Below the pieces are notes generated by a model. That model did not search any database and had not been told where the DNA came from. It saw only the letters and a program-made list of their open reading frames with translations. The position numbers and the translations under genes were made by a program. Shown piece by piece: positions 15,846 to 60,817 of a stretch of DNA of 64,000 bases. Positions within the stretch are counted from its first letter, which is position 1; every line of letters starts with the position of its first letter. Source of the DNA: Thelephora terrestris (taxonomy: Eukaryota > Basidiomycota > Agaricomycetes > Thelephorales > Thelephoraceae); assembly GCA_015956445.1 (NCBI GenBank), contig WIUZ02000012.1, forward strand, positions 1,054,001 through 1,118,000, given 5' to 3'.

Positions 15846-17635
15846 AGGGTGTACCAGAGCTCCTTCTTGATCGGATGATCCAGTTCTCCGAACCTACCCC
15901 GCATCTGGAAGGCCACCTTCTCAGCGATCATGGTACGGACCCAGAGCTCGTCGTCCCAGGTCAATCCCATCAAATGAGGGATCGTCTCCCGGAGACGTTT
16001 GGCATCCACCCAATTGACGACCTCCAAAATCTAGAAGCCATTAGCTCGACTTCAATGCCGAAAGAACGGACCTCTACCTAGAGGAAGGAGTTAGCGCTAA
16101 TACAAGAAGCCCTAGCTCTCCCCCATACCTGATCATCTGTGGTATAGGGAGTCCCCGCCTCATTGGTGTAGGTCTTGCGAGCGGCGGCACGACGGTCGAT
16201 ACGGGAGATGGTAGAGATCCCATTGGCGACTTGGTAGGTATGGTTGTTGGGGAAAGACATTTTGGTGAGAAGATGGGGAAGTTGCTGGTGTTGCTGATCA
16301 AGGATGGCTCCAAGAAGATGTCCTTCTTATAGCCTAGATCAGCGATCCTTCACGTGACCTACCTCGACGCACCTCATTGGTCCGGGTCACATCAACTTCC
16401 GCCCCTGTACCATCATTGTTGGCTTACTATATCAAGCTGACACCTCGGCCCACGGGACGGCCTTGGAAGAACTTTGTTCCGGAACGCCTAGAACACGTGC
16501 GCCCTAAAAATAGGTCTCATGACCTTGATGACCCCTTTACAAACCCCTTTTACAACCCTGATGACTCATTTATGACATCACGATAACGACCAACCCTGGA
16601 TCCTGATCACACACGTGGACAGTCACATCACAGTCTCCTAACCAGAGGAAGGAATCACCGTTAATTGCTAGGAGTGCCTTAGACTCCTTTTGGTTAGCCA
16701 AGCGAATGTGGAAGTAGCCGTTAGCGTGAAACACTGGCAAATCTGTAATCCCTCATGTCCCATGAGTCTAGGCCCGACCTCCTCATGTTCGGACGTACGT
16801 TGAGGTTGCCACTATTCCGTGATGCTGTTACCGCCTACAGACAACAAGGGATGTTGAATGGTCTCTATCTTTGGCCTCTCCAAAGGAAGCATCCAAGAAG
16901 ATTCTCACCCGACCCTTGGGTGTGATCCCCAGGTACGAACTTTCATGACCCCATGCCCCTCTTTCTTTAGGACTAGTGTTATCTTTACCCCTATGTTTCA
17001 TGCGGACATTCGTTATCTCTTATGCAACCCTTCACACGCTAGTAAGGCCCTTTGTCCTTTATTCTCCCACGCATCATATTTGTTCGCTTCCCTTACTTAG
17101 CATTCTCACACTCCTCATCTCCCTTTGTTCTGGCTTGATAAGGGTATATTAGGGTATTGACGTCATGGCCACTCCTTTAGTATAAGTAGCAACTGTGGCT
17201 GTATCGTAGTACCTTAGTTTTGTTACCTCTGGAAATCCTCTGCCCTTCTCAGCCCAGTTGCAGTTAAGGACAAGTCAGAGTTTCTTGTTTGAACACAAGG
17301 CATCCCCCATCTGCTCTCCCTCCCGCTCTGCGCCTCAACTGCACCTCATAACTATAAGAATCCCAGCATTCATATTAGAACACCTCGAGCGTCCAGTCAA
17401 TCACCTGGTGGAGTCATCAATCCTGTTGTAGGGATAAACCCTTGTCTGTTAAACTGAACGAAGTACAGTTTAGGTTGGGTTTCTCTTTAGGATTTTGACC
17501 TGACTTGTAGTGACCTCGGACAACCTACCGGAAGAATAGAGAAGTGATCTTTCTCTCACAGCTAGTTGGGCTAGTGAGTACTCTGCGGAGTCGGCTCAGT
17601 GCACTGGTAGTTGTTGGGGTAGAGTGGCCCTGACA

Positions 17636-26518: not shown

Positions 26519-27815
26519 TGTCAGGGCCACTCTACCCTAACAACTACCAGTGCACTGAGCCGACTCCGCAGAGTACTCACTAGTCCAACTAGTTTGTGAG
26601 AGAACGATCACGTCTCTATTCTTCCGGTAGGTTGTCCGAGGTCACTACAAGTCAGGTCGAAATCCTAAAGAGAAACCCAACCTAAACCGTACTTCGTTCG
26701 GTTTAACAAGCAAGGGTTTATCCCTACAACAGGATTGATGACTCCACCAGTTGATCGACTGGACGCTCGAGGTGTTCTAATATGACTGCTGGGAGTCTAT
26801 AGTTACGAGGCGCAGTTGACGCGCAGAGCGGGAGGGAGAGCAGATGGGGGTGTCTTGGATCAAACAAGAAACTCTGACTTGTCCTTAACTGCAACTGGGC
26901 TGAGAAGGGCAGAGGATTTCCTGAGGTAACAAAACTAAGGTACTACGATACAGCCACAGTTGCTACTTATACTAAAGGAGTGGCCATGACGTCAATACCC
27001 TAATATACCCTTATCAAGCCAGAACAAAGGGAGATAAGGAGTGTGAGAACGCTAAGTAAGGGAAGCGAACAAAGGTGACACGTGGGAGAATAAAAGACAA
27101 AGGGCCTTACTAGCGTGTGAAGGATTGCATAAAAGATAAGAAATGTCCGCATGAAACATAGGGGTAAAGATAACACTAGTCCTAAAAGAAAAGGGGCATG
27201 GGGTCATGAAAGTTCGTTCCTGGGGATCACACCCAAGGGTCAGGTGGCAATCTCCCTTTACATAGTTGTACCAGCGGATTCGGGAGTAGAGCCATGCAAA
27301 CATCCCTTGTTGTCTGTAGGCGGTAACAGCATCACGGACAAGTGGTAACCTCAACGTACGTCCGAACATGAGGAGGTCGGGCCTAGACTCATGGGACATG
27401 AGGGATTACTGATTCGCCGGCGTTTCACGCTAACGGCTACTCCACATGCGCTGAGCTAACCAGAAGGACCCTAAGGCGATGCTTCCGAATAGCGGCGAGT
27501 CCTTCCTCCGGTTAGGAGACTGTGATGTGACTGTCCACGTGTGTGATCAGGGTCCAGGGTTGATCGTAATCGTAAAGTCATGAGGGGTCGTAAAAGGGGT
27601 TCGTGATGTCATAAAGGGGTCATCAGGGTCTTGAGACCTATTTTTAGTGCGCGCGCGTTCTAGGCGTTCCGGAACGAAGTTCTTCCAAGGCCGTCCCGCG
27701 GGCCGAGGTGTCAGCTTGATGTAGTAAGCCAACGATGATGGTACAGGGGCGGAAGTTGATGTGACCCGGACCAATGAGGTTCGTCGAGGTAGGTCACGTG
27801 AAGGATCACCGATCT

Positions 27816-27826
27816 AGGCTATAAGA
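27816..27826 (+). promoter_or_regulatory. TATA-like box of the F2 gene
   Basis: GGCTATAAGAAGG lies about 70 bp upstream of the F2 start codon and is conserved at the same distance in F2-c (about 50856) and F2-a. This suggests the gene has its own RNA polymerase II promoter inside the element. Confidence 0.55.
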
Positions 27827-27892
27827 AGGACGTCTTCTTGGAGCCATCCTTGATCAGCAACACCAGCAACTTCCCCATCATCTTACCAAAAC

Positions 27893-29497
27893 ATGTCCTT
27901 CCCCAACAACCACACCTACAAAGTCGCCAATGGTATCTCTACCATCTCTCGCATCGACCGTCGTGCCGCCGCTCGCAAGTCCTATGCCTGTGCGGCTGGG
28001 ACTCCCTATACCACGGATGATCAGGTATGGGGGAGAGCTAGAGCTTCGTGTGTTTGCACTAACGCCTTCCTCTAGGTAGAGGTTACGTTCTTTAGGGCGT
28101 TGATGTCCTGCTAACGGCTTCTAGATCTTGGAGGTCGTCACAGAAGTGGACCCCGAACGTCTCAGGGAGACGATGCCTCATTTGACAGGGTTGACCTGGG
28201 ACGACGAGCTCTGGGTCCGTACGATCATTGCCGAGAAGGTGGCCTTCCGAATGAGGGGTAGGTTCGGAGAGTTGGAGCATCCGATCAAGAAGGAGCTCTG
28301 GTACACCCTGCAAAGGGGAATCTACGATCAGGACCTATTGGAGCACGGGGCAACCGTTCCTCGGGCCGTCCGCCATGCCACTGCCGCCACGTCATTGTTG
28401 TGGTCGCTCGTTCGGGAGGGGGAGAGCAAGGTAGGTTCTCCGTTTGAATATTCGAGTATGACTCTCGAATAATCAAACTGCCTAGGTTGAACGTTTGGAA
28501 CGTGAGGTGAAGGAAGCGAAGGCAGACGTCCTTCGTCTATCTGCGGAGGGTCTTCAGATGAAGGAGACCTTGGCCGCCTTCCAGCAGGGGACGAACGAGG
28601 CGTTGGAGGCAATGGTCGCCAACCATCAAGAGTTGATTGCTGGGTTGAAGGTTCGGGACAACAACATCAAGGGGGCGTTGGCCAGGAGGGATGAAAAGGT
28701 AGCTTTCCTCATCTCGAAGACGAAATGAGGGAAGCTGACACTTCTTCTAGACTGAGGAGCTTGAGAACGTGGTGGCCGTGTTGACAGCGCAGGTCGAGTC
28801 CTTGCAGGACAAAACCTGCAACTGTAAAGAGGGTCCCAAATTGGTTGGTCAGGGGACCGCCGATGTTCCGTTCGAGTTGGAGTACGCCGACGAGGTGGTA
28901 CTCCCTTCTCCTAACCCGTCGTCCTATGCGACGCCTCCGATCGAGAACTCGGTTCCCGTTCCGACTCCAGGTCCGGCTTCCACCTTGGCCGCTTCCGACA
29001 AGGAGAACTGTGGGCGCTGCGTCTTGCAGCCGATCCATCAGTTGGTGAAGATCGAGGATGAGGTCATGGAGGTTGACCGAGCCGAAGATGCTCCGAGGGT
29101 CGCCGAGGTACGTCCGGTGACTAAGGGGCAACGTTGCAAGCGCTCTCGACGCCGTCCTGCTCATCGCATGGCTCCAACGGCTAATCCTTACCCTCGACCA
29201 GTTGAGTCGGATGGTGACCAGTCTGGTCGAGGTGGGGGACGAGAGTTCCGCTATCGGGTCCACCGTCCCTACCGACAGGTCGAGTCGGAGATCCAGCTTC
29301 GCCACCAGCTACGACTCGCAAGACAGGATCCCACCCAGGGGTCCGACGAGGGAGACGGAGGGTCGCTTGCCGACTACGTCGATAGTGCTGTCGAGCAGTC
29401 ACCCGGTGATGGCGATGTGGGACCAGGTGTTCCAGAGTTCAGTGACATCTGGGAGGCTGATCGGTCCGCTCGAAGGAGTCTCTTCCTATCGGCTTGA
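27893..29497 (+). CDS. F2 gene, intact coiled-coil protein of unknown function (465 aa)
   Basis: Four exons (27893-28024, 28125-28430, 28486-28698, 28751-29497), all joined in phase 0, give 465 residues. Residues 1-44 (MSFPNNHTYKVANGISTISR...) form a short basic leader. Residues 45-146 are a helical domain with LTWDDELWVRTIIAEKV and HPIKKELWYTL. Residues 147-245 are predicted coiled coil (VERLEREVKEAKADVLRL..., TEELENVVAVLTAQVESLQ) ending in a small Cys motif, KTCNCKEG. The C-terminal 220 residues are Pro, acidic and Arg rich and look disordered, with RCKRSRRRPAHR as a possible nuclear localisation signal. I do not recognise the family. A structural or gag-like protein, or a DNA-binding accessory protein of the element, are possibilities only. 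Two other copies in the window are broken. Confidence 0.75.
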
Positions 29498-29584
29498 ACT
29501 AGTCGTTCAGCTGAGTGCCGAAGATGGTGACGCCATGTTCGGGGAGGTTCTTGCGAGGAGGGGCCAGCACTACGATCTCCGAGA

Positions 29585-30424
29585 CACTGGGGGCAAGGGG
29601 TCACTTACCCAGCAGATACATTGTGATTACATTGTGATTTTTTAGACAATGTGTCCAGCCTGTGGCCAGGAGGTACATGCTGAGTGCTTTTACAAAGTAC
29701 CCATCAATGCAACCACAATGTAGCCAGTGGGTCCATCTTGATCACTTTTACAAAGTGCCCATCAATTTGATCACAATGTGCCCTGTGGGTCCATGCAGGA
29801 TACATTGTAAAAGTATCCATCAAAGTGGCCACTGGGCACTTTGTGAAAGAAACCCCTGGGTTCTTTTACAATTTTGTTCACAAAGTGTCCAGCATACACC
29901 TGAGCCACTCATTGAGAGTTTTTTCAGAAAATATCCAGCAATGTGTCCACAAAGTATTCAACCAGATACTCAATGGTTTCTTTGGGAGTTTGTTGTGAAA
30001 TCCAACCACATTGAGAGTTCATTGTGAAAACATTAAGAAGAACCCCCTGGGGACATTGTGGTTGCATTACTGGGTACTTCTTGAAAGAACTCTCAATGAA
30101 TGGCTCAGGCACTCAGTAGGATACATTGTGAACAAAATTGTAAAAGAACCCAGGGGTTTCTTTCACAAAGTGCCCAGTGGCCACTTTGATGGATACTTTT
30201 ACAATGTATCCTGCATGGACCCACAGGGCACATTGTGATCAAATTGATGGGCACTTTGTAAAAGTGATCAAGATGGACCCACTGGCTACATTGTGGTTGC
30301 ATTGATGGGTACTTTGTAAAAGCACTCAGCATGTACCTCCTGGCCACAGGCTGGACACATTGTCTAAAAAATCACAATGTAATCACAATGTATCTGCTGG
30401 GTAAGTGACCCCTTGCCCCCAGTG
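29585..30424. mobile_element. Palindromic CACTG element P-D (840 bp)
   Basis: Nearly identical to P-A, with ends CACTGGGGGCAAGGGGTC and inverse, flanked by AGA on both sides. It sits in the 3' non-coding part of F2-b, about 50 bp from the position P-A occupies in F2-a, so the two insertions are independent. Confidence 0.85.
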
Positions 30425-30706
30425 AGATGGACGCTTGGTGACCTTCAGGCCTGCCGTAGATAGAGTCGACTTTTAAGGATGTAGGATAGCACTTGTATAG
30501 CTCGTTGTGGATTCGCTGGGAATAGTACGCGCGTGTGTGTGTTTCGAATGATTGGCATGAAGGATAAGGAGTGTGAAGCATTCAAAACATAAGAAGTGGT
30601 AAGAAGAGTTCGAAGAAAGAGCGTGTTATAAAAAGTTTAAAAATACCATGTTCCTGACACCGTTGAATCAGGAAGATAAAGAACCCCTGCAGCTCCCGGG
30701 TTCTGA

Positions 30707-41890: not shown

Positions 41891-42709
41891 CTATGTACGG
41901 GAAGGGACACCGGGAGTGGGATCAACTGAAGCCGACCCTGGGCCATTGGGTAGGCACATCAAGACTTAGGACAAGAAGAACAGGTTAACAGGAAATGCGA
42001 TGCCAGTATGAGTTCTTACGCTGTGTGCCTTGGGTCTTGGAGGATGGTAATCAGACAGGAGTAACAGTATCCACGGGACTTGTTTGCCCCGTTTGTGGGC
42101 TCCTGATAGAACATTTGGGAAGTGGCATGATCCACATGGAACCGCCGACCAGATTCAAAAGCGGCCATTGCAATGACTAAAAGAGAGGGTGGGTAAAGAC
42201 TGGAAAATGAGTGGAGGAGAAAGACGATGAAAAGCGAGCTGGATATGGAAGGCTGCTCTGCTACCTAGCGAAGAGCGGCTTATATACCTTGTTGTCCATC
42301 TAGTTCCGTGGTCAGGAGGTTGACACAACGTTATGACCCACACCAAAAACAAAAAGCTGATCCCTAAGAATGCAGCAGAGGAAATAAAGCCTTTGCATCA
42401 GGAAGGGAACATACAGCAAGAAATAAGCTTGCTGGGCATCAAGCGAAACAGGTGTCTCGTGTGAGTGAGTGATGGGCTTACCCCTTCAATGATTCACGTC
42501 TGAATCAAAGGTCCCTAACGAGTGTGAGACCCTTTCCTTTGTTTCACCAATAATGCAGAGCAGGAAGTAAGCAACCTTCACACAGTCTGGCAATTGAAAA
42601 AGGTAAAATCTAATGGAGATGGGCCTCGTACCAACTTGTGTATGGCGGACGGATCATGACGATATGCATGGTGCCTGGTGTGGAAAGGAATTAGGTTTGG
42701 GTGCAATGC
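41891..42709. other. Upstream region of the split DUF6818-like gene
   Basis: May hold a first exon of that gene on the minus strand (for example around 42140-42000 with a GTAAG donor), but I could not confirm a start. No other feature recognised. Confidence 0.35.
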
Positions 42710-43336
42710 TGTCAGGCCGACGCGACCTCTACAGTTCAATAGTACTCTTGCTATCCAAACCTATCGTAGACAGGGGTCAAACACACAGTTATAACCCTGT
42801 TACAAACCCAGGGATATCGGAAGTCTCTTCACAGACTAGATGAAAGAGAGGAGAAAGAAGGAGACAAGGGTCTTCAGGCACTCTTGCTCTAAGCACACAG
42901 CAGTAGAGGTCACGGAGAGTCTGATGATAACAAATCTAAGGAGTACAGGCTAAACTACTCTGAGTATATATACTACTTAGATTTGTGACGTGACAGTGAC
43001 ATGTAACTACCCTAAAGATACAAACACAGACAAACATGGTCCGTGCACAGCACTGCATGGTCTGTGCGTTACGTGGTGACTAATGCTACAAATTATCAGC
43101 TGATAAACGAAAGTGTGGCGGCCAATAGCAATTTGAGAGCATTACAGAGCAATTACAAAGCATGACGTAGCCTGGGAATGTTCGGAAGGAATGTGGGTAT
43201 GACTGACTAACAGCCAATGGCAAAAGGGGAGCATATGACTAAGAAATAGGGGCATATGATGTCATGTGGGTCATGCGCAGTAAACAATAGAAATGATGAC
43301 TCAACTCCTGAGTCGTGGAAGGGGCGTGGCATTTGG

Positions 43337-43343
43337 TATATAA
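43337..43343 (+). promoter_or_regulatory. TATA box of the F1 gene
   Basis: TATATAA within GGTATATAACCAAAGGGGG lies about 67 bp upstream of the start codon and is conserved in all six F1 copies (TATATAC/T in C5). It supports an independent promoter in each element. Confidence 0.65.
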
Positions 43344-43403
43344 CCAAAGGGGGTTGGATGACTGGGTTTCTAAACAAACCCTCCTTTGTTACACACAGCC
43401 AAC

Positions 43404-44665
43404 ATGCCTCGTGCCTCTACTCGTGTTCCCACCTGTCGCTCTTCCTCTTACTCTCCTGTTCAGGAGAACAACTTTAACATCGACCATTTCTCTCACGCTC
43501 GTCGTGATGCCTCTCGCCCTTATCCCACTTTGGGAAACGTTATGGACCGGACCGCCACCGCCGACCCTAATGAGGGTTTCACCAACTTAGGTTTGGGATG
43601 TCGGTTGACATATTTGGCGTGTCTTCTGATGTTTCGCTTTAGGTTTTAGGGACTTTATCCAGGCTTCTCGTAGGGTGTCTCGGCGCAAGTTGGCGCGTAT
43701 CGAGACGAATCCCTATGCGACCGAACTCCTCAACAGGGGTGTCAAGTTTGTCACTGAGACCAACGAGACCTTCAACTCCGTGTTGGAGGCCAGTGTTATC
43801 CATACGGGTAACGTTGGGTCTATGTTGATGGATGAGATTGCTCATGTAAATGAGCGAGTTGATGGTCGTCGGGAAGAGATCGAGAAGCTGGAGAAGGAGT
43901 TCCTCGGATGTCATGAGGGCATCTTGAAGATCGAAGATGAGCAAGAGCAGCATGGTATGGCGATCGACAGGTTGAAGGTAAGAAAGTTTGGGTCAGGAGT
44001 AATTGACCTTTCTAACTCAAACTTTCTTTCAGGGAGAGGTAATCACGTTGAAGGACTTGGTCCGGAGTCTCGTTGCGAAAACCGGAGAATTGGAAGACAA
44101 TAAGGTACTGGGACTGGGATTGAAGATAGTTGTCATCTTCTAACCCTGTTCCTTTTAGGTTCGCCTTACTCGTCGTGTTTCCGAGTTGACCGGAGAAGTC
44201 CGGGATCTCCAGAGGAGGTGCATCGAGCCGGAGGTCCGAGTCGAAGAAGAGGAGTTGGAAGTTCCACATCGGGCCGGGTCGCCGATAATCCCTAATCGGG
44301 CTGAGTCGCCGCCCGCTCGTTTGTTGGTCTGTCACGAGAACAGGTTGGTTCCCATCGATGATGAGGTCATTGAGATCGGGAGCGACGAATTTTATCAGAA
44401 TGTAGGAGTTGTTCGTAGGGACACTCCTCGTTCTGAGTTCGTTTCTACTCCTTGGGGTAGTCGCTGTCAATGGCCTGCTCTGGAGTATGATCCGTACACC
44501 GAGTTCGTTCCCGATAGTGAACCCAACTCTGATACGGAGCTTCCAGATTATAATGACTTGTCGGACGTGGACCCAAACGAGATCCGGGAGCAGAACTGGT
44601 TGAACGAAGAGTTGGTGAGATCGGCATTGGAAGTAGTACAAAGGATCCGAAGAGATATTGATTAG
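43404..44665 (+). CDS. F1 gene, intact coiled-coil protein of unknown function (366 aa)
   Basis: Reference copy of the F1 gene. Exons 43404-43590, 43643-43977, 44033-44104 and 44159-44665 join in phase to 366 residues. The N-terminal 62 residues are basic and Ser-rich (MPRASTRVPTCRSSSYS) followed by FNIDHFSHARRDASRPYPTL. Exon 2 has SRRKLARIETNPYATELL and a long predicted coiled coil (HVNERVDGRREEIEKLEKEF). Exons 3-4 continue it (VRLTRRVSELTGEVRDLQRR). The last 130 residues are acidic and probably disordered (EPNSDTELPDYNDLSDVDPN), ending in RRDID. I do not recognise the family. The intact state of several copies suggests use, or recent spread. Roles such as a gag-like structural protein or a partner of a trans-acting integrase are speculation. 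Confidence 0.75.
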
Positions 44666-45126
44666 ATAACTCTTTTGTACTGTTGGTTTCCAATGAATCT
44701 TCTTTCTTGTCTATTGCGCGTGATCCATGAATCGTAAAACATAATGGTTTTCATAAGTCCAATCCAAGGGTCAGATTAATAAGCCGGTTGACTTCTGCGA
44801 GAGGTCAGCACGCGACACTTATTAATACATCCCTTGTTGTCGGTAGCCTGAATATCTACTAGTCGTTCAGGGGCAACGGAGGGCCAGGTAGGGGGGATCT
44901 TCGTATGAAGGTCCGCCGGTACATGTTCACGTATTATACCTCGGGTCTTCTGGGGTATCTTGACTAGTAGCACGTTCCATGTATTGGACTTTTGGATCGT
45001 TAAACATAGGGCATATGGCATAATAAACAGTTTACCGCCATGTTTAGGGCAGGGCACCAACTGACTTAGTGGTGATGAGGCGTTAAATAAAGGAATTAAA
45101 AGGGGATAAACGGCGAAATCATCACA

Positions 45127-45483
45127 AATGCTAGCTGTAGTGCATATGCCTAACATGAAGTAAGTTTCAGCCTATGCCACAACCGCACTAGTGTTGGGGT
45201 GGGATGGTCAAACAACCACTGAGAGGGAAGCAATGTGGGAGTCAAGTGGAAAGAAGACACGGAATCTCGTTTGACCCCCACGATAACACAGCCTGTGGCC
45301 CGTTGAAAATAATATATTGAATCAATGGTTGGTACCTGGCATACATTTGGAACCCCAGATGAGGGGTTTAGAGACGATATTGTCATTCCGACACAACGGT
45401 CGGGGTCCTGACAGTTTCTTTATATGGGTTCGATACTCGTCTGGAAATGAGTGTACACCGTGTAGATCCTACAGATAGTCACC
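45127..45483. other. Unassigned DNA beside F1 copy C3
   Basis: About 350 bp with no gene or repeat recognised between the F1 copy and a partial palindrome arm. Confidence 0.35.
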
Positions 45484-47133: not shown

Positions 47134-48277
47134 TGTCAGGGCCACTCTACCCCAACAACTACCAGTGCACTGAGCCGACTCCACAGAGTACTCACTAGCC
47201 CAACTAGCTGTGAGAGAAAGATCACTTTTCTATTCTTCCGGTAGGTTGTCCGAGGTCACTACAAGTCAGGTCAAAATCCTAAAGAGAAACCCAACCTAAA
47301 CCGTACTTCGTTCGGTTTAACAGACAAGGGTTTATCCCTACAACAGGATTGATGACTCCACCAGGTGATTGACTGGACGCTCGAGGTGTTCTAATATGAA
47401 TGCTGGGATTCTTATAGTTATGAGGTGCAGTTGAGGCGCAGAGCGGGAGGGAGAGCAGATGGGGGATGCCTTGTGTTCAAACAAGAAACTCTGACTTGTC
47501 CTTAACTGCAACTGGGCTGAGAAGGGCAGAGGATTTCCTGAGGTAACAAAACTAAGGTACTACGATACAGCCACAGTTGCTACTTATACTAAAGGAGTGG
47601 CCATGACGTCAATACCCTAATATACCCTTATCAAGCCAGAACAAAGGGAGATGAGGAGTGTGAGAATGCTAAGTAAGGGAAGCGAACAAATATGATGCGT
47701 GGGAGAATAAAGGACAAAGGGCCTTACTAGCGTGTGAAGGGTTGCATAAGAGATAACGAATGTCCGCATGAAACATAGGGGTAAAGATAACACTAGTCCT
47801 AAAGAAAGAGGAGCATGGGGTCATGAAAGTTCATACCTGGGGATCACACCCAAGGGTCGGGTGAGAATCTTTTTGGATGCTTCCTTTGGAGAGGCCAAAG
47901 ATAGAGACCATTCAACATCCCTTGTTGTCTGTAGGCAGTAACAGCATCACAGACTAGTGGCAACCTCAATATACGTCCAAACACGAGGAGGTCGGGCCTA
48001 GACTCATGAGACATGAGGGATTACAGATTCACCGGCATTTCACGCTAACGGCTACTTCCACATTCGCTTGGCTAAACAAAAGGAGTCTAAGGCACTCCTT
48101 CCGAATAATGGCGATTCCTTCCTCCGGTTAGGAGACTGTGATGTGACTGTCAACGTGTGTGATCAGGGTCCAGGGTTGGTCATAATCGTGATGTCATAAA
48201 TGAGTCATCAAGGGTCGTAAGGGGGTCGTAAAGAGGTCATCAAGGTCATGAGACCTATTTTTAGTGTGCGCGTGTTC

Positions 48278-50694
48278 TGTGATGATTTCGCCGTTTACCC
48301 CCTTTCATTTCCTTTATTTAACGCCTCATCACCACTAAGTCAGTTGGTGCCCTGCCCTAAACACGGCGGTAAACTGTTTATTATGCAGTATGCCCTATGC
48401 TTAACGACTCAAAGTCCAATACGTGGAACGTGCTACTAGTCAAGATACCCCAGAAGACCCGAGGTATAATACGTGAACATGTACCGGCGGACCTTCATAC
48501 GAAGATCCCCCCTACCTGGCCCTCCGTTGCCCCTGAACGACTAGTAGATATTCAGGCTACCGACAACAAGGGATGTATTAATAAGTGTCGCGTGCTGACC
48601 TCTCGCAGAAGTCAACCGGCTTATTAATCTGACCCTTGGATTGGACTTATGAAAACCATTATGTTTTACGATTCATGGATCACGCGCAATAGACAAGAAA
48701 GAAGATTCATTGGAAACCAACAGTACAAAAGAGTTATCTAATCAATATCTCTTCGGATCCTTTGTACTACTTCCAATGCCGATCTCACCAACTCCTCATT
48801 CAACCAGTTCTGCTCCCGGATCTCGTTTGGGTCCACGTCCGACAAGTCATCGTAATCTGGAAGCTCCGTATCAGAGTTTGGTTCACTATCGGGAACGAAC
48901 TCGGCGTACGGATCATACTCCAAGGCAGGCCATTGACGGCGACTACCCCAAGGAGTAGAAACGAACTCAGGACGAGGAGTGTCCCTACGGACAACTCCCA
49001 CGTTCTGATAGAATTCGTCGCTCCCAATCTCAATGACCTCATCATCGATCGGAACCAACCTATTCTCGTGACGAACCAACAAACGAGCAGGCGGCGACTC
49101 AGCCCGATTAGGGATGATCGGCGACCCGGCCCGATGCGGAACTTCCAACTCCTCTTCTTCGACTTGAACCTCCGGCTCATTGCATCTCCTCTGAAGATCC
49201 CGGACTTCTCCGGTTAACTCGGAGACACGACGAGTAAGGCGGACCTAACAGGAACAGGGTTAGAAGATGACAACTATCTTCGATCCCAGTCCCAGTACCT
49301 TATCGTCTTCCAATTCCCCGGTCTTCGCAACGAGACTCCGGACCAAGTCCTTTAATGTGATCACCTCTCCCTAAAAGGAAATGTTGGGTTAGAGATGTCC
49401 AATATCTCCCGACCCCACATTTACCTTCAACCTGTCAATCGCCATACCGTGTTGCTCCTGCTCATCTTCAATCTTCAAGATGCCCTCGTGACATCCAAGG
49501 AACTCCTTCTCCAGCTTCTCAATCTCTTCTCGACGACCATCAACTCGCTCATTAACATGAGCAATCTCATCCATCAACATGGACCCAACGTTACCCGTAT
49601 GGATAACGCTGGCCTCCAACACGGAGTTGAAGGTCTCATTGGTCTCAGTGACGAACTCGACACCCCTGTTAAGGAGTTCAGTCGCATAGGGGTTCGTCTC
49701 GATACGTGCCAACTTGCGTCGAGACACCCTACGAGAAGCCTGGATAAAGTCCCTAAAACCTAAAGCGAAATGTCAGAAGACACGCCAAATATGTCAACCG
49801 ACATCCCAAACCTAAGTCGGTAAAACCCTCATTAGGATCGGCGGTGGCGGTCCGGTCCATGACATTTCCCAAAGTGGGATAAGGGCGGGAGGCATCACGA
49901 CGAGCGTGAGAGAAACGGTCGATGTTAAAGTTATTCTCCTGAACAGGAGAGTAGGAAGAGGAACGACGAGTGGGAACACGAGTAGAAGCACGAGGCATGT
50001 TGGCTGTGTGTAACAAAGGAGGGTTTGTTTAGAAACCCAGTCATCCAACCCCCTTTGGTTATATACCAAATGCCACGCCCCTTCCACGACTCAGGAGTTG
50101 AGTCATCATTTCTATTGTTTACTGCGCATGACCCACATGACATCATATGCCCCTATTTCTTAGTCATATGCTCCCCTTTTGCCATTGGCTGTTAGTCAGT
50201 CATACCCACATTCCTTCCGAACATTCCCAGGCTACGTCATGCTTTGTAATTGCTCTGTAATGCTCTCAAATTGCTATTGGCCGCCACACTTTCGTTTATC
50301 AGCTGATAATTTGTAGCATTAGTCACCACGTAACGCACAGACCATGCAGTGCTGTGCACGGACCATGTTTGTCTGTGTTTGTATCTTTAGGGTAGTTACA
50401 TGTCACTGTCACGTCACAAATCTAAGTAGTATATATACTCAGAGTAGTTTAGCCTGTACTCCTTAGATTTGTTATCATCAGACTCTCCGTGACCTCTACT
50501 GCTGTGTGCTTAGAGCAAGAGTGCCTGAAGACCCTTGTCTCCTTCTTTCTCCTCTTCTCCAATCTAAGTCTGTGAAGAGACTTCTGATATCCCTGGGTTT
50601 GCAACAGGGTTATAACTGTGTGTTTGACCCCTGCGTGTGAAAGGTTTGGATAGCAAGAGTGCTATTGAACTGTAGAGGTCGCGTCGGCCTGACA
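48278..50694 (-). mobile_element. F1 copy C4, complete, in the 5' region of F2-c
   Basis: 2417 bp in reverse orientation with a perfect 5-bp target duplication TGTTC (48273-48277 and 50695-50699). It separates the F2-c 5' region from its gene. Confidence 0.93.
48738..49998 (-). CDS. F1 gene, copy C4, intact
   Basis: Four exons, start MPRASTRVPTRRSSSYS at 49998 and end RRDID at 48738. All four exons are open, including the small exon 3 (about 49372-49301, GEVITLKDLVRSL). Intron 1 is of the GTTTGGGATG type, as in C1 and C3. See the copy at 43404 for the domain description. Confidence 0.75.
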
Positions 50695-51467
50695 TGTTCT
50701 AGGCATTCCAGAATGAAGTTCTTCCAAGGCCGTCCCGTGGGCCAAGGTGTCAGCTTGATGTAGTAAGCCAACAATGATGGTACAGGGGCAGAAGTTGATG
50801 TGACCCGGACCAATGAGGTGCGTCGAGGTAGGTCACGTGAAGGATCACTGATCTAGGCTATAAGAAGGACGTCTTCTTGGAGCCATCCTTGATCAGCAAC
50901 ACCAGCAACTTCTCCATCATCTTACCAACATGTTTTTCCCAAACAACCACACCTACAAAGTCGCCAACAGCATCTCCACCATCTCCTGTATCGACCACCG
51001 TGCCGCCAACCGCAAGACCTACACCAATGAGGTGGGGGTTCCCTATACCACTGATGAACAGGTATGGGGGAGAGCTAGAGCTTCTTGTGTTTGCACTAAC
51101 TCCTTCCTCTAGATAGAGGTCGTACATTCTTTGGCACAGATGTCGAGCTAGCGACTTCTAGATCTTGGAGGTTGTCAAGCAGGTGGACGCTGAACGTCTC
51201 AGGGAGATGATCCCACATTTGATGGGGTTAACCTGGGATGATGAGCTCTGGGTCCGGTCGATGATTGCCGAGAAGGTGATCTTCCAGATGTTGGGTAGGT
51301 TCGGGGAGTTGGAGCATCCAATCAAGAAGGAGCTCTGGTACACCCTGCAGAAGGGGATCTATGATCAGGACCTGTTGGAGCACGGGGCAACTGTTCCTCG
51401 GGCCGTCCGCCATGCTACCGCTTCTACCACGCTGTTGTGGTCGCTCGTTCAAGAGGGGGAAAGCCGG

Positions 51468-52585
51468 TGAACTAGCTGAACACTCCGGGTAGTCGGATAC
51501 CCTAAAAAGAGTGTACAAGCAGTTGAGTTGGGTACCAGTTGAGTGTTGAGTCCTGTACGACCACCGGAACAGAAGATCTGCTCAGAGATGCCCGAAGATG
51601 TCTGGAGAATCGCCGGGGAAGACCGCGACGACTAGAGTAAAGCGCGAGATTCGAGACAAAGCAGAGGGGGATAGGAACCGAGGTTGCGGAGAGTTGCGAT
51701 AGAGAATCACTGCGAAGTCGTACAGTAGCTGAGGTAGGCTTTGGTAGGAGCAAGAGATAAGACACAGAGAAGCCGAAAACTTGACTTGAGAACTGGAGAG
51801 CGAACCAGAGAACTGGAGAACTCGGACTGAAACTGAACTGGGGGATCTAAGTCGATGCATTCCAGGTTATCTAAGACACAGTATATAAAGGAAACCGAAG
51901 AATCTCCTAAATAAGCAGTGTCGAGATAGTCCGTGAGAGAGAAGGGGAACGGAAAAGCGAAACTAAGAGGAACTTGGTAAGAGGGGTAACTACTAGGGGG
52001 GGAAACGACGACGAAGGCTGGGTAACTACAGGGACGATGACGAAGGGGTGATGACAGCACGAGAGGAAGCCGCGTCATACAGGAGAAAATGCAGGGGAAC
52101 AGAAATCGAGAGCGGAAGATAGCAATGGAGGCAAATGCCCAGAGAACGGAACAGTGCAGGGAATGGAACTGATCGATCGACCGGGAAGTTCCGATCGATA
52201 AGGAATTGCGGGGACGAGAGCGCAGAACAATGGGATAACCAGAGATCGATGGCGGGAGGAATCGATAACGATAGATAGCGATGGCGAAGGGCTAGAACGA
52301 GAGTTGAAATGAGGATGAAAGGCGAGGGGAACGAGGCGTCGGGGATATCAGAGTTCCGGAGGGTCAGATAGTGTGTGGCAGATGGCAGAACGCGAGGATT
52401 CAAAACAGGGTTCCCGAGGGGAGGTGCGAAGCAGGGAAGAACGTCTGAGGAACAATAGAGGCGGTCCGGTGATCAGGGTGAAGGTTGCCTCGAGGCAGTC
52501 GCGAGGCCAAGAAGAGTCCGGAACTCAATGGAGTTGAACGACCAATAGGAAGGAATCGGAGATTGGGAGTTTCGACGTCACGACA
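51468..52585 (+). mobile_element. LTR3-2, probable solo LTR in F2-c
   Basis: 1118 bp, TGAACTAGCTG to GTCACGACA, flanked by CCGG on both sides (51464-51467 and 52586-52589). Internal TATA-like AGTATATAAAGG near 51875. Similar ends and layout to LTR3-1. Confidence 0.75.
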
Positions 52586-52905
52586 CCGGGTAGGTTTTCA
52601 GTTTGGATATTCGAGTATGACTCTCGACTAACCAAACGGCCTAGGTTGAACAATTGGAGCGTGAGGTGAAGGAAGCGAAGGCAGACGTCCTTCGTCTGTC
52701 GGCAGAGGGTCTCTTGATGCAGGAGACTATGGCCGCCTTCCAGAAGGGGACAAACGAGGCGTTAGAGGCGATGGTTGCTAACCACCAAGAGTTAGTCGCC
52801 AGCCTGAAGGTCCAGGACAACAACATCAGGAAGGCCTTGGACACGAGGGACGATCGCCTAAATAGGCACTCGAAGAAGATCGTCGTCCTACGCCACGCCT
52901 CCGGT

Positions 52906-53781
52906 CACTGGGGGCAAGGGGTGGTGTTCTGGTCCAGAACATTGCAAGTTCATTGCAAGGAAATGGACGATGTGCCTGGCACAAACTGACCCAGTACATC
53001 GCAAACACATTCTGAATTTTCCAGGCTGATTTCCTTGCAGTGTTCCAGGACAGAAAATGGTCAGTACATTCACAGTATTCCAGTGATGTTCCCATTAGGT
53101 AATCCATGGGTACACTCAGACTTTTCCCAAAGAAAGTAACCTCGACGTCGATGATCGGTGCATTTACAATTTTCCTGGTCAGGAAATTTTAAAATGCACC
53201 CAAACAGTGTTTTTGCAGTGTTCCGGGGTGGTACATCCAGAATGTACTGGTGCCGTCGACTGCAATGTACTGAGTTCAGAAAACACCAGGAACACTGCAG
53301 GAACACTGCAAGGAAACTGGAAAAACTGGGAACATCACAAGTTCATTCAAAATGTTCCTGGGTTTTCCAGTTTCCTTGCAGTGTTCCTGCAGTGTTCCTG
53401 GTGTTTTCTGAACTCAGTACATTGCAGTCGACGGCACCAGTACATTCTGGATGTACCACCCCGGAACACTGCAAAAACACTGTTTGGGTGCATTTTAAAT
53501 TTTCCTGACCAGGAAAATTGTAAATGCACCGATTGTCGACGTCGAGGTTACTTTCTTTGGGGAAAGTCTGAGTGTACCCATGGATTACCTAATGGGAACA
53601 TCACTGGAACATTGTGAATGTACTGACCAGTTTCTGTCCTGGAACACTGCAAGGAAATCAGCCTGGAAAATTCAGAATGTGTTTGCGATGTACTGGGTCA
53701 GTTTGTGCCAGGCACATCGTCCATTTCCTTGCAATGAACTTGCAATGTTCTGGACCAGAACACCACCCCTTGCCCCCAGTG
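52906..53781. mobile_element. Palindromic CACTG element P-F (876 bp)
   Basis: Starts CACTGGGGGCAAGGGGTGG and ends in the inverse, flanked by GGT on both sides. Arms of about 430 bp are nearly perfect inverted copies with a short loop near 53340. Repeated words are GTACATT/AATGTAC and ACACTGCA/TGCAGTGT, different from the other subfamilies. Confidence 0.9.
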
Positions 53782-54143
53782 GGTAGAGAATGTGGTTCCC
53801 GTCCCAACTCCGGCTCCAGCTTCTACCTTGGCCGAGTCCGACAAGGAGAACGGTTGTCGTTGCCCACTGCAGCCGATCCATCAGCTGGTGAAGATTGAGG
53901 ATGAGGTCATGGTCGTTGACTGGGCCGAAGATGTACCAAGGGTTGTGGAGGTATGTCTGGTGACTAAGGGGCAACGTTGCAAACGCTCTCGATGCCGTCT
54001 TGCTTATCGCATGGCTCCTTTGGCTAATCCTTACCTTCGACCAGTTGAGTCGGATGGTGACCAGTCTGGTCGAGGCGAGGGAAGAGGATTCCGATATTGG
54101 GTCAACCGTCCCAACCAACAGGTCGAGTTGGAGGTCCAGCGTA

Positions 54144-54644
54144 CACTGGGGGCAGGGGCACCTGGAATCTGTGATTACATCTTGATTACATTGTGAGTTC
54201 ATGTGCAATTTTCAATGATTGTAATCACCGATTCCAGGTTGATTATATTCCAAATGTTACCTTGACATGTGATTCAACTGTGCCCACCAACTCTATTTGA
54301 AATTTCCTCAACATGTTCTCAAGCAATGTTTCCTGAATGTGCCCAGTGGGCACATTGTGAAAACATCTCATGTTTTTGAGCGCATTTAGATTACATCTTG
54401 GACGATTGAAGAACATGTTGACTACATTGCAGTATCATTTTTGCCAACGGGTAAAGAACATCCCAGAAACATTTGTAGAGAACATTTCAAATGTAATTGG
54501 TGGACATTGGCTGGATTACATGTCAAGGTAACATTTGAAATGTGCTCAACCTGGAATCGGTGATTACAATCATTGAAAAGTGCACATGAACTCACCATGT
54601 AATCAAGATGTAATCACTGATTCCAGGTGCCCCTGCCCCCAGTG
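54144..54644. mobile_element. Palindromic CACTG element P-G (501 bp)
   Basis: Starts CACTGGGGGCAGGGGCACC and ends in the inverse, flanked by GTA on both sides. Same subfamily as P-H (GATTACAT/ATGTAATC words). Inserted in the last exon of the F2-c gene. Confidence 0.88.
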
Positions 54645-55167
54645 GTAGGCACCTCACTCGACTCGCAATACAGGATTCCGCCCAGGCCTCCAATGAGGGA
54701 GACAGAGGGTCTCTCTTCAACGACGTTGACAGCGCTGCCGAGCAGTCACCCAGTGATGGAGATGTGGGACCAAGTGTTCCGCAGTTCGGTGACATCTGGG
54801 AGGCTGATCAGTCCGCTTGAAGGAGTCTCTTCTTATTGGCTTGAACTAGACGTTCAGTTGAGCACGGAAGATGGTGACACCATGTTCGGAGAGATCCTCG
54901 CGAGGAGGGGCCGGTTCTTCAATCTCCGGGATGGAACATTGATGACCATGAGGCCTGCCGTAGATCGAGTTGACTTTTGAGGGGATGTTTATAAGCATTG
55001 TATAACCATGTCGTTTCGTAGTGCTGTGAATGAATTGCGCGTTTGTGTGTTTTGAATGATTGGTATGAAGGATAAGGAGTGCGAAGCATTCAAAACATAA
55101 GGAATGGTAAGAAGAGTTCGAAGAAAGAGCGTGTTATAAAAAATTTAAAAGTACCATGTTCCTGACA

Positions 55168-55497: not shown

Positions 55498-55972
55498 CAC
55501 TGGGGACAAGGGGTTAAATACCCGGGGGTACATGCTGAACACATTGTGATCACAGTCAAAAAGTGATCACAATGTGCCCAGTGGGGGAAATTTGATTGCG
55601 ATCACAATATACACATCAATGTGAACTCAATGTGCCTGCTGTGCACATTTTAATTTCTTTCACAATGTTCCCATCCATGTGCTCACAATGTACCCAGCTC
55701 ATTACATAATAGTTTCTTTCACAATGTTGTCCACAATGTGTCCAGCATGTGGCTGAGCCACTCATTCAAACTTCTTTCACAAAGTATCCAGTGATGTGTC
55801 TAGAATGTGGACAGCCATACACATAGTGATTTCTTTGAAAGTTCATGGTGAAATCAAACAATATTGAGATTAAATTGTGATTACTTCAAAAAGAATCCCC
55901 TGGGGACATTATGGACACATCACTGGGTAATCTTTGAAAGAATTTTGAATGAGTGACTCAGCCACATGCTGT
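55498..55972. repeat. Truncated CACTG palindrome (P-A-like)
   Basis: Starts CACTGGGGACAAGGGGTTA. Its left arm and the beginning of its right arm (TGAATGAGTGACTCAGCCAC mirrors GTGGCTGAGCCACTCATTC) are present, but the rest is replaced by F1 copy C5. The missing remainder is not found on the far side at 60818, so DNA was lost. Confidence 0.7.
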
Positions 55973-56456
55973 GATGATTTCGCCGTTTACCCCCTTTTAT
56001 TTCCTTTATTTAACGCCTCATCACCACTAAGTCAGTTGGTGCCCTGCCCTAAACACGGCGGTAAACTGTTTATTATGCAGTATGCCCTATGCTTAACGAC
56101 TCAAAGTCCAATACGTGGAACGTGCTACTAGTCAAGATACCCCAGAAGACCCGAGGTATAATACGTGAACATGTACCGGCGGACCTTCATACGAAGATCC
56201 CCCCTACCTGGCCCTCCGTTGCCCCTGAACGACTAGTAGATATTCAGGCTACCGACAACAAGGGATGTATTAATAAGTGTCGCGTGCTGACCTCTCGCAG
56301 AAGTCAACCGGCTTATTAATCTGACCCTTGGATTGGACTTATGAAAACCATTATGCTTTACGACTCATGGATCACGGGCAATAGACAATATAGAAAATTC
56401 ATTGGAAGCCAACAGTACAAAAGAGTTATCTAATCAATATCTCTTCGGATCCTTTG

Positions 56457-58882
56457 TGTCAGGCCGACGCGACCTCTACAGTTCAATAGCACTCTTGCTA
56501 TCCAAACCTATCACACTCAGGGGTCAAACACACAGTTATAACCCTGTTGCAAACCCAGGGATATCGGAAGTCTCTTCACAGACTTAGATTGGAGAAGAGG
56601 AGAAAGAAGGAGACAAGGGTCTTCAGGCACTCTTGCTCTAAGCACACAGCAGTAGAGGTCACGGAGAGTCTGATGATAACAAATCTAAGGAGTACAGGCT
56701 AAACTACTCTGAGTATATACTACTTAGATTTGTGACGTGACAGTGACATGTAACTACCCTAAAGATACAAACACAGACAAACATGGTCCGTGCACAGCAC
56801 TGCATGGTCTGTGCGTTACGTGGTGACTAATGCTACAAATTATCAGCTGATAAACGAAAGTGTGGCGGCCAATAGCAATTTGAGAGCATTACAGAGCAAT
56901 TACAAAGCATGACGTAGCCTGGGAATGTTCGGAAGGAATGTGGGTATGACTGACTAACAGCCAATGGCAAAAGGGGAGCATATGACTAAGAAATAGGGGC
57001 ATATGATGTCATGTGGGTCATGCGCAGTAAACAATAGAAATGATGACTCAACTCCTGAGTCGTGGAAGGGGCGTGGCATTTGGTATATAACCAAAGGGGG
57101 TTGGATGACTGGGTTTCTAAACAAACCCTCCTTTGTTACACACACACACAGCCAACATGCCTCGTGCTTCTACTCGTGTTCCGACTCGCCGCTCTTCTTC
57201 CTACTCTCCTGTTCAGGAGAACAACTTCAACATCGACCGCTTCTCCCATGCTCGTCGGGATCCGTCTCGTCCTTATCCCACTTTGGGAGCTGTTATGGAC
57301 CGGACCGCCACCGCCGACCCTAATGAGGGGTTCTCTGATTTAGGTGGGGGCCCTGCTTGCATATTCCGATTTAGGAAACCAAGCTAACTCCTTTTAGGTT
57401 TCAGGGATTTCATCCAGGCTTCTCGTAGAGTATCTCGACGCAAGTTGGCTCGTATCAAGACCAACCCCTATGCGACCGAACTCCTTAACAGGGGTGTCGA
57501 GTTCGTTACTGAGACTAATGAGACCTTCAACTCTGTGTTGGAGGCCAGCGTTATCCATACGGGTAACGTTGGGTCTATGTTGATGGATGAGATTGCTCAT
57601 GTCAATGAGCGTGTCGATGGTCGTCAGGATGAAATCGAGAACTTGGAGAAGGACGTTGCCGTGTTGCAAGATTGGACGATGAAGACGGATGATGCCGCTG
57701 AGAAACAGGCTGCGGATCTTGACATGTTGAAGGTAAGAAATGTGGGGTCGGGAGTAATTGACTTTCCTAACTCCACTTTTCTTTTAGGGAGAGATGATCA
57801 CGTTGAAGGACTTGGTCCGGAGTCTTATTGCTAAGACTGGAGAATTGGAGGACGATAAGGTAACGGGTAGGGGTTGAAGGTTTTTGATGTCTTCTAACCC
57901 TATTCGTTTTAGGTTCGCCTTACTCGTCGTATCTCCGAGTTGACCGGAGAAGTCCGGGATCTCCAGAGGAGGTGCAACGAGCCGGAGGTCCGAGTCGAAG
58001 AAGAGGAAGGGGAAGAGGTTCTGCATCGGGCCGGGTCGCCGATCATCCCTAACCGGGCTGAGTCGCCGCCTGCTTGTTTGTTGGTCCGTCACGAGAATAG
58101 GTTGGTTCCTATTGATGATGAGGTCATCGAAATCGGGAGCGACGAATTCTATCAGAACGTAGGAGTCGTCCGTCGGGACACTCCTCGTCCTGAGTTCGTT
58201 TCTACTTCTTGGGGTAGTCGCCGTCAATGGCCTGCTCTGGAGTATGATCCGTACACCGAGTTCGTTCCCGATAGTGAACCAAACTCTGATACGGAGCTTC
58301 CAGATTACGATGACTTGTCGGACGTGGACCCAAACGAGATCCGGGAGCAGAACTGGTTGAATGAGGAGTTGGTGAGGTCGGCATTGGAAGTAGTACAAAG
58401 GATCCGAAGAGATATTAATTAGATAACTCTTTTGTACTGTTGGCTTCCAATGGATTTTCTATATTGTCTATTGCGTGTGATCCATAAGTCGTAAAGCATA
58501 ATGGTTTTCATAAGTCCAATCCAAGGGTCAGATTAATAAGCCGGTTGACTTCTGCGAGAGGTCAGCGCGCGACGCTTATTAATACATCCCTTGTTGTCGG
58601 TAGCCTGAATATCTACTAGTCGTCCATGGGCAACGGAGGGCCAGGTAGGGGGGATCTTCATAGGAAGGTCCGCCGGTACATGTTCACGTATTATACCTCG
58701 GGTCTTCTGGGGTATCTTGACTAGTAGCACGTTCCACGTATTGGACTTTGAATCGTTAAGCATAGGGCATACTGCATAATAAACAGTTTACCACCGTGTT
58801 TAGGGCAGGGCACCGACTGACTTAGTGGTGATGAAGCGTTAAATAAAGGAAATGAAAGGGGGTAAACGGTGAAATCATCACA
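56457..58882 (+). mobile_element. F1 copy C6, inserted inside F1 copy C5
   Basis: 2426 bp in the opposite orientation to C5, with a perfect 5-bp target duplication CTTTG (56452-56456 and 58883-58887). This is a self-insertion of the family and the youngest event at this site. Confidence 0.93.
57157..58422 (+). CDS. F1 gene, copy C6, intact with a divergent coiled-coil block
   Basis: Exons 57157-57343, 57398-57732, 57788-57859 and 57913-58422 join in phase to 367 residues. Most of the protein matches other F1 copies closely, but the end of exon 2 (QDEIENLEKDVAVLQDW to QAADLDMLK) differs strongly over about 33 residues at exactly the same length. Exon 4 has one extra residue (EEEEGEEV). It ends RRDIN. 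Intact frame. See the copy at 43404 for the overall description. Confidence 0.75.
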
Positions 58883-60121
58883 CTTTGTACTACTTCCAAT
58901 GCCGACCTCACCAACTCCTCATTCAACCAGTTCTGCTCCCGGATCTCGTTTGGGTCCACGTCCGACAAGTCATCGTAATCTGGAAGCTCCGTATCAGAGT
59001 TTGGTTCACTATCGGGAACGAACTCGGCGTACGGATCATACTCCAGAGCAGGCCATTGACGGCGACTACCCCAAGGAGTAGAAACGAACTCAGGACGAGG
59101 AGTGTCCCTACGAACAACTCCTACGTTCTGATAGAATTCGTCGCTCCCGATCTCAATGACCTCATCATCGATCGGAACCAACCTGTTCTCGTGGCGAACC
59201 AACAAACGAGCGGGTGGCGACTCAGCCTGGTTAGGGATGATTGGCGACCCGGCCCGATGCGGAACTTCTGGCTCCTCTTCTTCGACTTGGACCTCCGGCT
59301 CGTTGCACTTTCTCTGGAGACCCCGGACTTCTCCGGTCAACTCGGAAACACGACGAGTAAGGCGAACCTAAAGGAATAGGGTTAGAAGATATCAAAAAAC
59401 CTTCAACCCCTACCCCTTACCTTATCGTCTTCCAACTCCCCGGTCTTCGCGACAAGACTCCGGACCAGGTCCTTCAATGTGATCACCTCTCCCTAAAGGA
59501 AATGTTAGGTTAGAGATATCCAATATCTCCCGACCCCACATTTACCTTCAACCTGTCAATCGCCATACCATGTTGCTCCTGCTCATCCTCAATCTTCAAG
59601 ATGCCCTCATGACACCCAAGGAACTCCTTCTCTAGCTTCTCGATCTCTTCACGACGACCATCAACTCGCTCATTAACATGAGCTATCTCATCCATCAACA
59701 TGGACCCAACGTTACCCGTATGGATAACGCTGGCCTCCAACACAGAGTTGAAGGTCTCATTGGTCTCGGTGACAAACTCGACGCCCCTGTTAAGGAGTTC
59801 GGTCGCATAAGGGTTCGTCTCAATACGCGCCAACTTGCGCCGAGACACCCTACGAGAAGCCTGGATAAAATCCCTGAAACCTAAAAGGAGTTAGCTTGGT
59901 TTCCTGAATTGGAATGCGCAAGCAGGGCCCCCACCTAAGTCGGTAAAACCCTCATTAGGGTCGGCGGTGGCGGTCCGGTCCATAACGGCTCCCAAGGTGG
60001 GATAAGGGCGGGAAGCATCCCGGCGAGCATGAGAGAAGCGGTCAATGTTGAAGTTGTTCTCCTGAACAGGAGAGTAGGAAGAAGAGCGGCGGGTGGAAAC
60101 ACGAGTAGAAGCACGAGGCAT
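58822..60121 (-). CDS. F1 gene, copy C5, altered C-terminus from the C6 insertion
   Basis: Starts MPRASTRVSTRRSSSYS at 60121, with exons 1-3 open. In exon 4 the frame runs ...LVRSALEVVQ and then enters the C6 terminal sequence, which adds about 20 new residues (SVMISPFTPFHF...) before a stop at 58822. It loses only the last seven native residues. The protein may still be made with a new tail. Confidence 0.65.
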
Positions 60122-60817
60122 GTTGGCTGTGTGTAACAAAGGGAGGTTTGTTGAGAAGACCCAGTCATCCAACCCCCTTTGGTTATATACTAAATGCCAC
60201 GCCCCTTCCACGACTCAGGAGTTGAGTCATCATTTCTATTGTTTACTGCGCATGACCCACATGACATCATATGCCCCTATTTCTTAGTCATATGCTCCCC
60301 TTTTGCCATTGGCTGTTAGTCAGCCATACCCACATTCCTTCCGAACATTCTCAGGATACGTCATGCTTTGTAACTGCTTTGTAATGCTCTCAAATTGCTA
60401 TTGGCCGCCACACTTTCGTTTATCAGCTGATAATTTGTAGCATTAGTCACCACGTAACGCACAGACCATGCAGTGCTGCGCACGGACCATGTTTGTCTGT
60501 GTTTTTATCCATAGTATAGTTACATGTCACTGTCACGTCACAAATCTAAGTAGTATATATACTCAGAGTAGTTTAGCCTGTACTCCTTAGATTTGTTATC
60601 ATCAGACTCTCCGTGACCTCTACTGCTGTGTGCTTAGAGCAAGAGTGCCTGAAGACCCTTGTCTCCTTCTTTCTCCTCTTCTCCAATCTAGTCTGTGAAG
60701 AGACTTCCGATATCCCTGGGTTTGCAACAGGGTTATAACTGTGTGTTAGACCCCTGTGTGTGATAGGTTTGGATAGCAAGTGTGCTATTGAACTGTAGAG
60801 GTCGCGTCGGCCTGACA

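Follow-up and report, generated by a model that had tools for sequence, protein, structure and literature searches.

An intron-containing gene inside a putative giant LTR of the fungus Thelephora terrestris

What kind of mobile element has the ends and target duplications of a retroviral-type insertion, is 2.4 kb long, and carries an intron-containing gene of its own? This question is raised by a locus in the window analysed here, a stretch of 64,000 nucleotides (C4:1054001-1118000) of the 40.6-Mb, 60-contig genome of Thelephora terrestris, an agaricomycete fungus by taxonomy that is described as ectomycorrhizal in a part of PMC7550596. A preliminary description of this DNA had listed six copies of the unit, here termed F1, had seen no recognisable enzyme in it, and had offered three readings: a coding solo LTR, a non-autonomous element moved by an integrase, or a new class of element.

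The intact F1 copy at 42710..45126 (plus strand) starts with TGTCAGG, ends with CATCACA, and is flanked on both sides by the target site duplication (TSD) AATGC (42705..42709 and 45127..45131). Four further copies in the window have perfect 5-bp TSDs. The copy at 11660..15082 (plus strand, ATAGT) contains an insert of about 1 kb (12498-13504), and its empty site is present in copies of a second repeat family, F2. Another copy lies at 18313..20729 (minus strand, TCCTA/TAGGA), and the one at 48278..50694 (minus strand, GAACA/TGTTC) is placed within an F2 copy. The copy at 56457..58882 (plus strand, CTTTG) is nested in another F1, and other F1 copies provide the ungapped empty site (97.5% over 200 bp). 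The outer copy around it (55970..60817, minus strand) has no TSD (ACAGG/GCATG). All six copies are thus present with the ends that had been described, and the five perfect duplications stand. Scanning the window for TGTCAGG...TNACA bordered by equal 5-mers gave 11 hits (five F1 copies, and three F2 copies each found on both strands), compared to 0-2 hits for each of ten scrambled motifs, which rules out chance as the source of the F1 ends and TSDs.

A genome search with F1 yielded 315 candidates; the 40 that were scored comprised 48 matches, 29 of which span positions 1-2417 of the unit. When up to three mismatches were allowed, the 5′ end and the 3′ end each had 243 matches in the genome, versus 26 and 6, respectively, for reversed-pattern controls; about 100 of the 243 matches are listed for each end. 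This corresponds to about 220-240 genomic F1 copies. A perfect 5-bp TSD was found in 33 of the 37 distinct copies with both ends read, a count that leaves out L028 (5′-truncated) and L005 (a duplicate of L004); the exceptions are L006, L020, L029 (one mismatch) and the outer copy of the window. The TG/CA ends and the 5-bp duplications are confirmed, and the duplications fall within the 4-6 bp that are typical of Ty3/gypsy LTRs. The full copies read have the ends TGTCAGG and TGTGATG, that is, ends of the TG...CA (TGTNR) type. This TGTNR pattern is given for gypsy LTRs in part of PMC2836005, and TGTCA and TGTGA of F1 match it. For 40 elements (36 F1, three F2, one F3) the flanks were joined and used for searching; a spanning match, some of them weak or gapped, was obtained for 18. 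Nine of these 18 are ungapped over about 190-200 bp and represent eight distinct sites, L004 and L005 being one duplication. F1 hence behaves as a solo LTR does, a lone unit with a TSD whose empty site exists elsewhere, and our data demonstrate that it is a mobile unit with precise ends. No Rfam match was detected in 42600-45250, so an RNA gene in the unit, or a tRNA- or 5S-like LTR, is not supported.

The single gene of F1 is read on the plus strand. A TATA box (TATATAA, 43337..43343), which we take from its sequence to be functional, precedes the ATG at 43404. Exon 1 (43404..43590) follows the open frame and has the N-terminus of the annotated protein P0001; exon 2 (43643..43977) and exon 3 (44033..44104, coding for a coiled coil) were delimited by the aligned copies. 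Exon 4 (44159..44665, stop at 44665) encodes an acidic tail, and some annotated models add one more terminal exon by splicing. The introns are located at 43591-43642, 43978-44032 and 44105-44158. An intact frame was found in 26 of 32 aligned copies (25 plus L021, see below), two of the 32 being joined across inserts, where the frame may be misread. Introns 1 and 3 are present in 32/32 copies and intron 2 in 31/32. For the 25 intact copies (300 pairs) dN/dS is 0.123, while the other two reading frames, used as control, gave 1.6 and 2.4. The F1 gene is under purifying selection, and the view that the unit has its own intron-containing gene is confirmed.

The encoded protein consists of an N-terminal part, the coiled coil and the acidic tail, with low-complexity parts. 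A Pfam scan of four F1-family proteins revealed no domain above the cut-off, in line with the lack of a recognisable enzyme noted earlier, and the comparison of the F1 protein with Pfam and PDB gave only sub-threshold coiled-coil matches; the public database assigns PF10473 to 2 of 72 hits. All 72 hits of the protein search are T. terrestris proteins (BJ322DRAFT names). A profile search in which the 8000 best candidates were scored returned 81 hits, 79 from T. terrestris and two metagenome fragments. F1 encodes an orphan protein. Its modules are mosaic among the family members, and the protein P0070 resembles a fused F3-F1 gene model.

Divergence is distributed very unevenly along the unit. 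A constant 5′ flank (42710..43364, plus strand) with about 3% mean divergence among the 25 intact copies is followed by a variable transcribed unit (43365..44745, delimited by sliding divergence and change-point fits, with a broad right edge) and by a constant 3′ flank (44746..45126, from the divergence fits). If the gene is antisense to pol, the 5′ flank would be the R-U5 side and the 3′ flank the U3 end. The segment 43010-43360 shows 99-100% identity in the 40 best-scored of 229 candidates, and the remaining 29 copies of the alignment differ from L001 by 0-4.6% in it. In the 25 intact copies the noncoding ends differ by 3-4% on average, third codon positions by 18.5% and introns by 11-22%, with a mean dS of 0.34. 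Silent sites and introns of the transcribed unit are thus several times more diverged than the ends. As an example, the window copies starting at 42710 and 56457 are identical over 43010-43360 and differ at 22% of third positions. Divergence climbs some 40 bp upstream of the ATG, which is 20-30 bp past the TATA box, and drops about 80 bp beyond the stop. Change-point fits of 423 pairs placed the left edge at 43365-43439 (5-95%) and the right edge broadly at 44362-44744. The left edge of the variable unit is sharp and lies close to the predicted start site. The alignment combines the copies most similar to the window copy with the window copies themselves, a non-random sample.

Trees calculated from the 5′ flank, the gene and the 3′ flank disagree with each other. 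Site incompatibility within the unit clusters by distance (0/200 shuffles were as low); the flanks, which have few sites, show no such clustering. These data support recombination between F1 copies. An escape from RNAi as the cause of the silent divergence was also considered and rejected: shared 21-mers are not broken up (234 observed versus 187 shuffled, 391 pairs), the opposite of what escape predicts and a sign of clustered differences, although mosaicism confounds this test.

The copy L021 (C23:170015-172375) provides information on the history of the gene. This copy lacks exactly intron 2 (43978..44032, plus strand), has an unbroken frame and still contains introns 1 and 3; the nearest relatives of L021 at both sides of the intron 2 site retain the intron. 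Of the listed genomic protein matches that cover exons 2 and 3 without a break, 13 show no additional length and another 13 are longer by 54 bases; F1 copies with an intron length that is not a multiple of three are split into two matches and appear in neither count. Exons 2 and 3 are joined without the intron in L021 and at 12 other listed places, a presence/absence polymorphism within one repeat family. The exact loss in L021 implies that spliced sense RNA was copied into DNA at least once. This supports an RNA step in the history of F1, which covers the copying of spliced sense RNA and not the full LTR cycle. Copying of sense RNA counts against F1 following a strictly antisense plan; the retention of introns 1 and 3 is compatible with a gene antisense to the genomic RNA.

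Two routes could have led to young ends around an old gene. Each round of reverse transcription may combine a gene-bearing U3 anew with a common R-U5, or copied gene RNA may be written back into existing copies, which is conceivable in view of the intron 2 loss. Selective sweeps or constraint on the ends are other ideas that might account for the pattern.

At least three families, F1 among them, have the same plan and the TGTCAGG end. F2 and F3 also start with TGTCAGG, end with CA, have 5-bp TSDs and carry a single gene, and the TGTCAGG end of F2 sits on the same side of the gene as in F1. When each family is read in the direction opposite to its gene, all three finish with ...CCTGACA. The ends of F2 have 605 matches in the genome (control 3) and those of F3 have 296 (control 1). 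The lengths are 2.4 kb for F1, about 3.3 kb for F2 without its palindromic insert and 2.25 kb for F3, of which one complete copy was read (L041:310-2557, TSD ATGAC, gene starting with MSSFVANNA...). Together the three families could total up to about 3.2 Mb or 8% of the genome, an upper bound that takes truncated copies as whole. A dN/dS of 0.21 was determined for the last exon of the F2 gene (six pairs, four copies). Homology between the F1 and F2 proteins was considered and is not supported (hhalign probability 2.1%).

Three F2 copies were identified by sequence in the window: copy A at 26519..30659 (plus strand, TSD CCGTT, gene exons ending at 29497), copy B at 9569..17635 (minus strand, TGCTT), broken by the F1 at 11660, and copy C at 47134..55167 (plus strand, CCTGT), broken by the F1 at 48278 and by palindromic elements. 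Near-perfect palindromic fold-back elements are located at 40701-41574, 45603-46684 and 52906-53781, and their read ends begin/end with CACTGGGG / CCCCAGTG. Two F2 copies carry a palindromic insert in the same position (9853-10698 and 29584-30430); the inserts are 97.9% alike, compared to only about 87% for the surrounding F2 sequence. The window also contains an ORF for a DDE_Tnp_4 transposase (38755-39366; PF13359, E 2.5e-11), a possible further gene-bearing repeat (62785-63998, ORF MSSSSKWTPP...), and a segment (61626-62227) that is 96.7% alike to the flanks of other F1 copies (L029, L026).

F2 gives a clue to the origin of such units. We compared the first 100 listed of the 605 F2 5′ ends (contigs C1-C7, no mismatch) with the positions of reverse transcriptase (RT) hits. 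Measured from the RT of a gypsy family with an ORF of 1322/1367 aa, F2 5′ ends are found at +6191 on C1 and at +6197 on C4. A second F2 on the same strand lies beyond the RT, at −3127 (C1) and −2189 (C4), and all of these F2 units are antisense to pol. Two of the 37 integrase hits on C1-C5 are placed between same-strand listed F2 ends less than 15 kb apart, and both are the two members of this gypsy family on these contigs. By coordinates, a direct-repeat pair of F2 around pol is hence present in 2/2 members on contigs with listed F2 ends, out of eight members. The interior between the F2 units on C4 is about 5.1 kb, which fits the 1367-aa ORF; the interior on C1 would exceed this by about 0.9 kb. 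RT lies ahead of integrase, as in Ty3/gypsy elements. F2 positions were jittered by ±20 kb in 20,000 trials; these two elements, which were picked after the fact, had an equal offset in 18 of the trials and were both flanked on two sides in 1,058. The two loci may also stem from segmental duplication of one odd locus. As judged from the coordinates of these two elements, F2 is an LTR of about 3.3 kb, mostly solo, with a gene antisense to pol. At most about 16 of the 605 F2 ends could belong to the eight RT copies of this family. F2 5′ ends were also observed in head-to-head pairs with a spacing of 512-585 bp (C1:1296753/1297265, C1:4234717/4235235, C1:540555/541140).

According to the preliminary description, direct-repeat pairs of F1 around a polyprotein would make F1 an ordinary, if large, LTR. 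Such pairs were found for F2, by coordinates and at two elements. For F1, one of 144 integrase hits lies between two same-strand ends less than 16 kb apart (C4, 13.6 kb), among 125 usable 5′ ends and 130 usable 3′ ends; F1 is sense to pol in this candidate, and the arrangement does not recur elsewhere. No recurrent offset of F1 to RVT_1 (RT) hits was seen, also when 185 F1 places were pooled, and none to RVT_2 hits, so that a Copia partner is not supported. Near a family with a 1354-aa RT, F1 is sense in three of four cases with unequal offsets, and this orientation speaks against a strictly antisense F1 plan. Four weak integrase hits (C58:484112, C12:733958, C20:103341, C34:2452993) have near-equal scores and 92-aa frames and no listed RVT_1 or RVT_2 within 8 kb; they possibly represent an RT-less integrase gene with introns.

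By analogy with its sister family F2, we consider it probable that F1 is the giant LTR of a Ty3/gypsy-type retrotransposon, that it holds an entire accessory gene together with its introns and a promoter of its own, and that most copies are solo. The first of the three earlier readings, the coding solo LTR, is thereby favoured through the F2 pairs around RT and integrase. The element would have integrated through a retroviral-type integrase, giving rise to the 5-bp duplications, and recombination between the two LTRs would have removed the interior and left a solo F1; as the gene sits inside the LTR, it would stay whole in this process. For F2, the position antisense to pol would spare the introns of the gene from splicing of the genomic RNA. 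The F1 protein is perhaps a regulator of the element, as may be the case for other antisense accessory genes.

The alternative that survives best, and that we regard as unlikely, is a single-unit non-autonomous element that never had a second LTR, in which a Ty3/gypsy or Ginger-like integrase would act in trans on LTR-like ends and the coiled-coil protein would be part of the process. The 33 of 37 copies that are lone units with their own TSD agree with it, and so do the 3′ flanks, of which the first 45 bases are all different in 30 copies except for the duplicate L004/L005; sequence pieces that the flanks have in common are F2 or other repeats. The 99-100% identity of the upstream 351 bp in the 40 best-scored of 229 candidates points to young copies, yet no pair was seen, and introns 1 and 3 are kept in all aligned copies. 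However, F2 has the same ends and plan and forms direct-repeat pairs around pol. With full elements as rare as in F2 (no more than about 16 of 605 ends), the 37 copies read should include about one paired F1, so that the absence of a pair says little. The RNA copying documented by the exact loss of intron 2 would be superfluous in a DNA-only cycle, and a mechanism for copying one unit would have to be assumed. The giant-LTR reading is more likely than a single-unit element.

It is very improbable that F1 is a Ginger DNA transposon, a cut-and-paste element related to gypsy integrases, or a deletion derivative of one. Ginger1 and Ginger2/TDD have TGTNR ends, and TDD-4 and TDD-5 have 5-bp TSDs, as reported in part of PMC2836005; for 12 of the 144 integrase hits, moreover, no RVT_1 or RVT_2 hit is listed at a distance of up to 8 kb. 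The long terminal inverted repeats (40-270 bp), the integrase-like transposase and the target preferences described there were not found in F1: its two ends have only TGT-A in common, the Pfam scan of four proteins revealed no encoded integrase, and CCGG, CCGT or TATA occur in 0 of 33 TSDs, which excludes targets of the CCGG/CCGT or RTATAY kind for these copies. Equally improbable is an autonomous DNA transposon moved by the F1 protein as a new type of transposase. In favour of it, this protein is the sole gene product found for the unit, is conserved under selection (dN/dS 0.12) and has no known domain above the cut-off. Against it, the protein resembles a coiled coil with acidic and low-complexity parts, and the F2 protein is not detectably related and yet goes with the same end type and TSD length, so that the moving enzyme is more likely shared and external.

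How does a giant coding LTR compare to known elements? Mouse mammary tumour virus has a coding LTR with the sag gene, and HBZ of HTLV-1 is spliced. HBZ is antisense, as stated in a section of PMC11963269. In these viruses the gene, which has regulatory or interaction roles, lies within the LTR or is antisense from it, as would be the case for F1 and F2; unlike them, F1 carries an orphan gene in a fungus, and no sequence relation to these vertebrate retroviruses was found. An extra gene antisense to gag-pol is described for Grande (GENE23, maize), Retand (Silene), RIRE2 (rice) and Boty (brtn, Botrytis) in parts of PMC7264820 and PMC11963269. The same sections place these genes in the interior, between pol and the 3′ LTR, and in all or most copies of many such elements, report an own promoter for Grande, and mention proteins of unknown function, some with SMC-like or mitotic-checkpoint-like domains. 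F2 shares the antisense orientation of the extra gene. In contrast to these elements, the F2 unit lies on both sides of pol and the gene is inside the LTR (by coordinates for F2, and probably also in F1), resulting in two genes per full element and one per solo LTR. Helenus comprises fungal non-autonomous LTR elements, and some families consist only of fragments and solo LTRs with 5-bp TSDs (PMC10886601, in part). Helenus elements are short with tRNA-like LTRs in that account, while F1 matches nothing in Rfam and contains a gene for a protein.

The open-licence PMC literature contained no description that we could find of gene-bearing fungal LTRs or of T. terrestris repeats like these, nor did we find there the combination of a multi-exon gene under selection with a giant LTR as its site, several such families within a single genome, and a predominance of solo units. 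The relatives of F1 in protein searches, which had been suggested earlier as a check, are T. terrestris proteins and two metagenome fragments, with sub-threshold matches in PDB.

A wider scenario goes further, and we put it forward tentatively, at somewhat less than even confidence: in at least three Ty3-type families of T. terrestris the LTRs would have acquired a conserved gene that is spliced and, in F2, runs antisense to pol. Some 1,100 LTRs, most of them solo (up to about 8% of the genome), would then be self-contained dispersed gene units, and the F1 gene might be an exchangeable cassette inside near-identical ends, through reassortment or RNA write-back.

LTRs are normally regarded as non-coding. 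If an LTR can house a protein gene that is under purifying selection, solo LTRs count as gene copies and not as debris; LTR-LTR recombination would no longer destroy the gene, which would survive where the rest of the retrotransposon is lost. Many "hypothetical proteins" of T. terrestris (72 of 72 hits for F1, 69 of 79 for F2) would in that case be transposon genes. The constant ends around a variable gene, together with the intron 2 polymorphism, would offer a test of how reverse transcription and recombination separate the histories of the parts of an LTR.
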